From: Gemmatimonadaceae bacterium
Lineage (GTDB): Bacteria; Gemmatimonadota; Gemmatimonadetes; Gemmatimonadales; Gemmatimonadaceae
Assembly (NCBI GenBank): GCA_030835125.1
Contig: JAUQWM010000069.1
Location: 1-64,000 of the forward strand
Length of the DNA: 64,000 nt
Reading direction: 5' to 3'
Below are positions 28,330 to 29,793 of the stretch, piece after piece. The notes under the pieces are model-generated. The model was not told where the DNA came from, made no database searches, and saw only the letters and a list, made by a program, of their open reading frames with translations. Positions within the stretch are counted from its first letter, which is position 1. The number at the start of each line of letters is the position of its first letter. The position numbers and the translations under genes are program-made.

Positions 28330-29001
28330 ATGCACACCATCGCACGCTCGAACGCCCGACGGGGCGCACGCCTCGCGCTCGCCACGTTGCTCGCGCTGGA
28401 ACTGACCGCGTGCGCATCCCTCAGCCGCAAGGAGAAGGGAGCGGTCATCGGGGCTGCGGCCGGCGGGACGGCGGGCGCCGTCATCGGCCACCAGACGGGA
28501 TCCACCGCTCGCGGCGCGATCATCGGCGCCGTCGTCGGCGGCACTGTAGGCGCCATCATCGGGCACCAGATGGACCAGCAGGCCAAGGAGCTCCAGCAGA
28601 ACATCCCGGGCGCCACCGTGTCCCGTGTCGGTGAAGGCATTGCCGTGACCTTCGCCTCGGGCCTGCTGTACGACTTCGACTCGGACGTCGTGAAGGCCGA
28701 AGCGGCGAAGAACCTGCGGGCGCTGGCCGCGAGCCTGGGCAAATACCGGAACACCGACCTCATCATCGTCGGCCACACCGATGCCACGGGCACGCTGGCC
28801 TACAACCAGGGCCTGTCGCAGCGGCGCGCCACGGCCGCGGCTGACTTCCTGACGGGCCAGGGCGTGAGCCCGGGACGGCTCCAGGCGGTGGGGCGTGGCG
28901 AGACCGAACCGCTGTCACCTAACGACACGGAGGCGGGGCGCCAGCTGAATCGTCGCGTCGAAATCGCCATCTACGCCAACGCGACCGCCCGCAATCCGTA
29001 G
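28330..29001 (+). CDS. Glycine-zipper OmpA-like lipoprotein (copy 2)
   Basis: The 223-residue lipoprotein has the lipobox LTAC (Cys28), a glycine-zipper segment, and an OmpA domain with LYDFDSDVV, VGHTDATG and the C-terminal NRRVEIAIYAN. It is a close paralogue of 21962-22615. A hairpin shared with the convergent micropeptide gene follows. Confidence 0.9.
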   Translation: MHTIARSNARRGARLALATLLALELTACASLSRKEKGAVIGAAAGGTAGAVIGHQTGSTARGAIIGAVVGGTVGAIIGHQMDQQAKELQQNIPGATVSRVGEGIAVTFASGLLYDFDSDVVKAEAAKNLRALAASLGKYRNTDLIIVGHTDATGTLAYNQGLSQRRATAAADFLTGQGVSPGRLQAVGRGETEPLSPNDTEAGRQLNRRVEIAIYANATARNP

Positions 29002-29038
29002 TCCCGGACGCTCGCTCCTTCACGACCTCATGACGACG

Positions 29039-29072
29039 GCGCGCGGCCACCGACCATCGATGACCGCGCGCC
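29039..29072. terminator. Bidirectional terminator hairpin
   Basis: GGCGCGCGG (29039-29047) pairs with CCGCGCGCC (29064-29072). It separates the rightward OmpA gene from the leftward micropeptide gene. The T-tract is weak (TTCCTC). Confidence 0.6.
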
Positions 29073-29089: not shown

Positions 29090-29164
29090 TCAGCAGCAGC
29101 CGGTACCGGACGGACAGGGACAGTCGTCGCCACACCCGGTGCACGTGCAGGTTTCGTCCATCAT
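29090..29164 (-). CDS. Cysteine-rich 24-residue micropeptide, candidate mini-metallothionein
   Basis: A 24-residue peptide (Met-Met-Asp-Glu-Thr then Cys-rich) has seven cysteines in the pattern CxCxxCxxxCxCxxxxxCC, with two acidic residues and no aromatic. This is a metal-thiolate composition. GGAGG lies 8 bases upstream of the first ATG (29164). The ATG overlaps the TGA of the MerR gene by four bases, so translation is coupled. A second in-frame ATG follows at once. It is far shorter than known bacterial metallothioneins (about 50 residues and up). I infer that it binds soft metal ions; the role and metal are untested. Confidence 0.7.
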   Translation of the reverse strand: MMDETCTCTGCGDDCPCPSGTGCC

Positions 29165-29754
29165 CGTACGTTCCTCCTGGAAGCGGTTGAAGGTGCCGCC
29201 GGGGACGTTCCGCGCTTCGCGACCAGCCGCCCCGGCGACGGCGATCGCTTCTTGCCCTGGACCGCGCCCTCTCCACTCGCGTCCTCGAGGGCCTCGACCA
29301 GTGGACAGTCGAGCGCCCCGCGCGGATCACGCGGCGCGGCACAGGCGCGATCGCAGTCCTTGAGGAGCTTCCCCAGCGCGCCCCGGAGGGCGCCGAGCTC
29401 ACGGATGCGGCGATCGATTTCCCGCATCTTGGCATCGGTGGCTTCGCGCAGTCGCGACGGCGCGGTACCGGACCAGGCTCGCTCCCGGAGATGGATCAGT
29501 TCCTCCACCTCGGCCAGCGTGAATCCGAGCGACTGGGCGCGCCGGATGAACCGCACCAGCCGCACCGCCCCGTCGTCGTACTCGCGATAGCCGCTGGCGC
29601 GGCGTCCGACCGGCCGCAAGAGCCCTCGACGTTCGTAGAAGCGCAGGGTGTCGGCGCTCACGCCCGTCGACGATACAACGTCCCCGATACGGAGGACGGT
29701 GCCCGGGCTCTGCGCGACCCGGCGCTCGCTTGTGCCACCTGGCTGGGATCTCAT
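29161..29754 (-). CDS. MerR family metal-responsive regulator
   Basis: The 197-residue protein has the MerR winged-helix (LRIGDVVSSTGVSADTLRFY, GRRASGYREYDD) and a dimerisation helix. Cysteines in KDCDRAC and LDCPLVEAL resemble the metal loop of CueR/ZntR/HmrR-type sensors. The residue aligned with Cys79 of ZntR is not Cys, which fits a monovalent-metal sensor better, but the loop is longer than in CueR. The C-terminal 40 residues are a basic disordered tail. The ATG at 29754 is only 7 bases after the -10 box. It drives the coupled cysteine-rich peptide. Confidence 0.88.
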   Translation of the reverse strand: MRSQPGGTSERRVAQSPGTVLRIGDVVSSTGVSADTLRFYERRGLLRPVGRRASGYREYDDGAVRLVRFIRRAQSLGFTLAEVEELIHLRERAWSGTAPSRLREATDAKMREIDRRIRELGALRGALGKLLKDCDRACAAPRDPRGALDCPLVEALEDASGEGAVQGKKRSPSPGRLVAKRGTSPAAPSTASRRNVR

Positions 29755-29761
29755 GGAGCGA

Positions 29762-29793
29762 ATCCTAAACCCTGGAGCGCACTCCAGAGTCAA
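29762..29793 (-). promoter_or_regulatory. MerR-type promoter/operator with 20-bp spacer
   Basis: On the minus strand, TTGACT (29793-29788) and TAGGAT (29767-29762) are separated by 20 bp, which is the over-long spacer MerR regulators correct by DNA distortion. The spacer holds a dyad CTGGAGTGCGCTCCAG. It looks like ZntR- and CueR-type operators. The start site would be next to the ATG at 29754, so the mRNA would be leaderless or nearly so. Confidence 0.85.

Follow-up and report, generated by a model that had tools for sequence, protein, structure and literature searches.

What is a MerR-type regulator there to control when neither merA, merT nor merP is found in its operon, which therefore does not qualify as a mer operon? 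The question is raised by a stretch of 64,000 nucleotides from a bacterium of the Gemmatimonadaceae (hereafter the window), where four elements follow one another on the minus strand: an operator (29762-29793), a merR gene (29754-29161), a very short, cysteine-dense open reading frame (29164-29090) and a hairpin (29072-29038). Our answer, which we hold with good if incomplete confidence, is that they make up an autoregulated merR-metallothionein operon devoted to the sequestration of a soft metal. As there are neither expression nor binding data, translation of the peptide, its binding of metal, the identity of this metal and the protection that would follow are all inferred.

The operator and its regulator

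The promoter, TTGACT-CTGGAGTGCGCTCCAGGGTT-TAGGAT (29762-29793, minus strand), combines a -35 element, TTGACT, and a -10 element, TAGGAT, with a spacer of 20 bp within which lies the dyad CTGGAG-TGCG-CTCCAG (CTGGAG-N4-CTCCAG), spacer and dyad being computed from the sequence. It is thus the MerR-type operator that the preliminary description had recognized and, together with the MerR helix-turn-helix domain of the protein, it meets what defines the family, an operator spacer of 19-20 bp included. The same design is repeated at two other loci, L046 and L119. The pattern has a single exact match in the genome to which the window belongs (G000), in a search that allowed at most two mismatches and that a quite different operator would escape; nor does this genome contain a MerA above the curated cut-off. 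These two observations leave the peptide as the only evident target: if the regulator acts, via this operator, on anything besides its own gene, the peptide would evidently be it, as far as sequence allows us to judge. The TTG at 29793 that is listed as the start of merR falls within the -35 element; the earliest start codon that can serve is the ATG at 29754, lying 7 nt beyond the -10 element (window 29754-29767). In four loci (the window, L046, L119 and L126) no more than 6-7 nt separate the -10 element from the merR start, and this tight spacing suggests that merR is probably translated from a leaderless, or nearly leaderless, transcript.

The gene (29161-29754, minus strand, with its TGA stop at 29163-29161) encodes a protein that scores above the Pfam cut-offs for MerR_1, MerR and MerR-DNA-bind (PF13411, PF00376 and PF09278). 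Counted from the ATG at 29754, its only cysteines are C134, C138 and C150, arranged as C-x3-C-x11-C (29305-29355, minus strand), so that the MerR protein with metal-loop cysteines announced earlier is borne out. Aligned with MerR, C138 falls at the C114 position and C150 at that of C123, while C134 stands one helical turn ahead of C138; there is no equivalent of C79, a residue which in MerR comes from the other protomer. An AlphaFold model of modest confidence (mean pLDDT 69.7, 55-73 in the loop region), used solely for placing the cysteines, puts C134 and C138 where the long helix ends and C150 where the following helix begins. Curated families do not settle the matter: the NCBIfam scores (ZntR 97, MerR 90, CueR 89 bits) are all far under their cut-offs, and for the Hg(II)-type model, TIGR02051, the 90 bits compare with a required 150.85, the C79/C114/C123 triad being incomplete for want of C79.

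Among 51 regulators placed in a tree, that of the window forms one clade with those of genomes G359, G027, G015, G026 and G280 (support 100/99.9), and a wider group around these six takes in the regulator of locus L126. The three loop cysteines are invariant across the clade, half of whose members (G015, G026 and G280) directly precede a MerA that passes the cut-off (498-505 bits against 454). The MerA proteins found behind this C79-less clade (L115:4269-6365, L116:4578-6482 and L117:3874-5919) display an N-terminal HMA-like CLDC stretch, which a long linker of low complexity separates from the reductase domain. In L050 (the same place as L102), from about position 1500, the MerR frame continues in-frame into a segment with RELMQRHPATRAVFERFGVDTCCGSG, recalling the N-terminal domain of ScdA/RIC; a similar segment makes a separate frame behind merR in L055.

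A gene of 24 codons

The gene that follows, MMDETCTCTGCGDDCPCPSGTGCC (29090-29164, minus strand), has 24 codons, seven of them for cysteine. It shares the four bases ATGA with the merR stop, and a Shine-Dalgarno sequence, AGGAGG (29173-29178, minus strand), sits 8 nt ahead of its ATG, which confirms the good ribosome-binding site and the four-base overlap initially reported. The peptide is 29% cysteine, with two CxC and one CC, has four acidic and no basic residues, and lacks both aromatic residues and histidine. It thereby satisfies the compositional definition of a metallothionein: a very small protein with some 20-30% or more of cysteine arranged in CxC or CC, and few or no aromatics. It is the sole open reading frame of 15-60 residues in the window with at least seven cysteines at a proportion of at least 25%, and no such frame arose when the window was resampled 60 times with a first-order Markov model. 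Searches of curated families were negative, for all six peptides considered in this work with Pfam and for the five examined with NCBIfam, very short queries weakening the power of both. As no curated family matches while the composition is that of a metallothionein, we see the 24-mer as a new variation on a known type, its binding of metal being inferred.

The most telling comparison comes from L046, in a genome of the same family and of a different genus (G359), whose MerR, 61% identical, is the closest relative of that of the window. The frame 3' of this merR encodes MNDLACTCGCGDDCPCGTGCC. All seven cysteines are retained, as are acidic, glycine and proline residues; the two genes differ by indels of whole codons and by six synonymous substitutions in aligned codons, every amino-acid change lies within the first five residues, and the cysteine core has undergone synonymous changes only. 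Absence of cysteine conservation at homologous loci had been named beforehand as something that would refute the proposal; with seven of seven kept at L046, the proposal survives.

Behind the peptide gene a 16-bp hairpin (29038-29072, minus strand; RNA fold -46.5 kcal/mol, z -4.9) probably marks the end of the transcript. Comparable hairpins stand 3' of the L046 and L119 peptides, but since the one of the window has no run of T its function as a terminator is merely inferred. No co-directional gene is found behind the peptide in the window; the gene lying there (28330-29001, plus strand) is convergent and encodes a YiaD-type OmpA lipoprotein.

Related peptides in the family

Counting that of the window, six genera of the family have a MerR gene accompanied by a mini-ORF dense in cysteine. 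In the four besides the window and L046 the peptide is longer, with 31-41 residues and 11-14 cysteines. The one in G027 (L003/L119; MerR 54% identical) has 41 residues and 14 cysteines, and also starts by an ATGA overlap with merR. In G453 (L094/L126) MNSESCCCDCPNCTCGCEPGSPCCGNCCGSK is encoded behind a merR having the C79/C114/C123 pattern and directly ahead of a merT-like gene (PF02411, 37.8 bits for a cut-off of 32.9), so that this locus does qualify as a mer operon. A third, of 33 residues with 13 cysteines, was found in G353 (L129/L132) by searching genomes using the peptides alone; its gene and that of a CadR/ZntR-like MerR are divergent, and the promoter between them bears a dyad. Right behind the peptide gene begins a long receptor-like frame which, by eye and without alignment, looks like the TonB-receptor gene found close to the G027 locus. 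The fourth, in G058 (L028/L136), came to light as an outlier in a control comparison. It also has 33 residues and 13 cysteines (TTG start, GGAGG) and is divergent from its MerR; the promoter presents a -35, a -10 and a 19-bp spacer, with an imperfect dyad of which only the ends, ACCTT...AAGGT, remain. Genes for DUF4198 and HupE/UreJ lie some 400 nt beyond this peptide (DUF4198 and HupE/UreJ_2, L136:5498-7079), an unusual setting that hints at another metal. Two regions, L119:6329-11047 and L132:893-3920, cluster a CadR/ZntR-like MerR, a peptide with 13-14 cysteines and a TonB-dependent receptor or receptor-like frame, with an HMA-CDF efflux gene in L119; they possibly represent a second metal system, not one for mercury, in which the same type of peptide serves.

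How specific is this association? In the 561 kb scanned, on both strands, exactly six open reading frames have at least seven cysteines at a proportion of at least 22%, and each has a MerR-type promoter upstream; these 561 kb having been chosen by MerR or peptide matches, the result tells of the specificity of the neighbourhood, not of a genome-wide frequency. A MerR gene adjoins all five loci that were found by the peptide-based genome searches. Three of the longer peptides have the motif CCCDCP-x-C-x-CGC...CCG-x-CC in common, and those of the window and L046 look like the second half of these longer ones, CTC(x)GC...C...CC. The alignment between short and longer forms is brief, so that common descent of the two groups, judged on these residues alone, is plausible and not proven. 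A model of the longer peptides recovered three clear loci in 177 genomes of the family and no new locus in 345 genomes of the class. Divergent members, such as that of L028, escape this model as well as the seven-cysteine profile, and the counts of peptides are therefore lower bounds. Weak genome matches in G045 and G449, which sit in long frames, were dropped.

Chance, leader, carrier or another metal

That the 24 codons might be an untranslated frame, open by chance, is hardly credible. There are no expression data to oppose to it, and 24 codons are short; but L046 conserves the cysteines, with indels in frame and changes that are synonymous, the strong Shine-Dalgarno sequence comes with an overlap, and nothing similar arose in the 60 resampled windows. 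We rejected it on this null and on the codon-level conservation. Short polycysteine frames of mycobacteria are a precedent for cysteine-responsive leaders, and one may ask whether the present frame, short and rich in cysteine codons as it is, acts as an attenuator, where translation would matter and the product would not. This too is very improbable, because in the window, L046 and L119 the frame is the last in the transcript, followed by the hairpin and then by no close co-directional gene, which led us to discard the idea; a leader would moreover not account for acidic, glycine and proline residues being kept along with the cysteines.

Granting that the peptide is made, it might be a carrier instead of a store, to which a transporter or MerR would hand Hg(II) for delivery elsewhere, or it might damp MerR by feedback. 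The L126 peptide gene adjoins merT, and coupling to merR would suit a one-to-one damper; yet the window operon offers neither a transporter nor a reductase as recipient, and the peptides with 11-14 cysteines resemble stores of several metal ions, so that we consider this role unlikely. The identity of the metal is a more delicate matter. The links with merA and merT make Hg(II) the first choice as the inducing and sequestered ion, an inference towards which we lean without much assurance. The same device might quite possibly work with another metal, even if this is not where our preference goes: the regulator would sense Cu(I), Ag(I) or Au(I), or else Cd(II), Zn(II) or Pb(II), and the peptide would be a thionein, either for copper or for soft metals in general. 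According to a review, discrimination between +1 and +2 ions rests mainly on the residue found at position 77/79 (PMC9909328), and as the window MerR, like CueR, has no cysteine there, Cu(I) and Ag(I) are not excluded. Fungal metallothioneins with seven cysteines bind about six Cu(I) (PMC13107397), and of the NCBIfam models ZntR gives the regulator its highest score, though far under the cut-off. Other peptides adjoin CadR/ZntR-like regulators and CDF or HupE-like genes, so that the metal may differ from one locus to another. Against this stand the three of six clade regulators placed directly before MerA, and the related peptide lying between merR and merT in L126.

Known systems

Fungal family-I metallothioneins have about 25 residues, with a cysteine spacing unlike that of the window peptide. 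Those of Agaricus bisporus and Neurospora crassa resemble the 24-mer in being small and in having the seven cysteines with which they bind some six Cu(I) (PMC13107397). They differ in being eukaryotic and outside any MerR operon, and no sequence match between them and the peptide of the window was found. Among bacteria, SmtA/BmtA, the Pseudomonas metallothioneins and MymT are likewise genetically encoded, cysteine-rich metal binders; with roughly 50-60 residues they are about twice as long. The SmtA gene adjoins that of a metal-responsive regulator, SmtB (PMC7387436). This regulator is an ArsR-type repressor, unlike the MerR associated with the 24-mer, and both SmtA and the Pseudomonas metallothioneins have histidine ligands. 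Zrd of Pseudomonas aeruginosa, a small unannotated cysteine protein controlled by CadR, of the MerR family, has been proposed to be metallothionein-like (PMC12301328); it is larger than the 24-mer, contains two zinc-ribbon Cys4 sites (CXXC-N10-CXXC) and does not share an operon with its regulator. The window has a MerR and its operator in common with mer operons, merA is under the control of sister regulators, and the L126 peptide lies between merR and merT; the window operon differs by its lack of merA, merT and merP and by a regulator without C79.

Searches further afield gave nothing comparable. In PLSDB plasmids, tblastn with three peptides found no match, a weak test because the low-complexity filter may mask such queries. 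In viral contigs the pattern CGDDCPC selected ten contigs, all with other proteins, and two stricter patterns none; one match, in the IMG/VR contig L085 (10899-10919, minus strand), belongs to a signal-peptide-like protein in which the motif CGDxCPC recurs (GCRCGDVCPCGPGCKCGDDCPC), with no link to MerR as far as checked. A sequence search of the PDB returned chance matches only. We know of no described bacterial metallothionein this small, nor of any encoded within a merR operon. The part of the open literature on metallothioneins with Gemmatimonadota, mer operons or MerR that a limited search could reach, with few subscription journals, does not describe the arrangement, and within this limit the group of very small MerR-linked bacterial metallothioneins looks undescribed.

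How the operon may work and what it would mean

We may now propose how the operon works. In the absence of metal, MerR would keep the promoter silent owing to its over-long spacer of 20 bp. Once a soft metal, Hg(II) being the likeliest, had bound the C-x3-C-x11-C loop, the protein would distort the promoter, and both merR and the 24-codon gene would be transcribed by RNA polymerase. The peptide would then be translated, both by coupling through ATGA and from its own ribosome-binding site, its seven thiolates wrapping a single metal ion or a few of them; as a miniature metallothionein it would buffer the inducing metal and thereby reset the sensor. A minimal MerR-controlled metallothionein buffering its inducer is what the preliminary description had proposed. 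Its translation and metal binding remain inferred, and it gains support from the conserved cysteines of L046, the four further MerR-linked peptides, the merT and CDF neighbours and the single copy of the operator; against it, the seven-cysteine form is matched by its profile in two genomes only, of 179 in the family and of 395 in the phylum.

Going beyond the window, it seems to us slightly better than an even bet that these peptides, made on ribosomes and 21-41 residues long, constitute a new family of bacterial mini-metallothioneins, with the smallest that any bacterium is known to have among them, that MerR-type sensors recruited them repeatedly, and that some lineages handle mercury by thiol sequestration under the type of regulator that drives reduction by MerA in sister lineages. 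Were this true, searches for bacterial metallothioneins would have missed a size class lying below the normal cut-offs for open reading frames, and a MerR operator followed by a cysteine-dense mini-ORF would provide a simple genomic handle for finding more members. An encoded soft-metal binder of 21-24 residues, coming with its own inducible promoter, would be useful for biosensing and bioremediation. We would also be witnessing a natural exchange of sequestration for MerA under one type of sensor.
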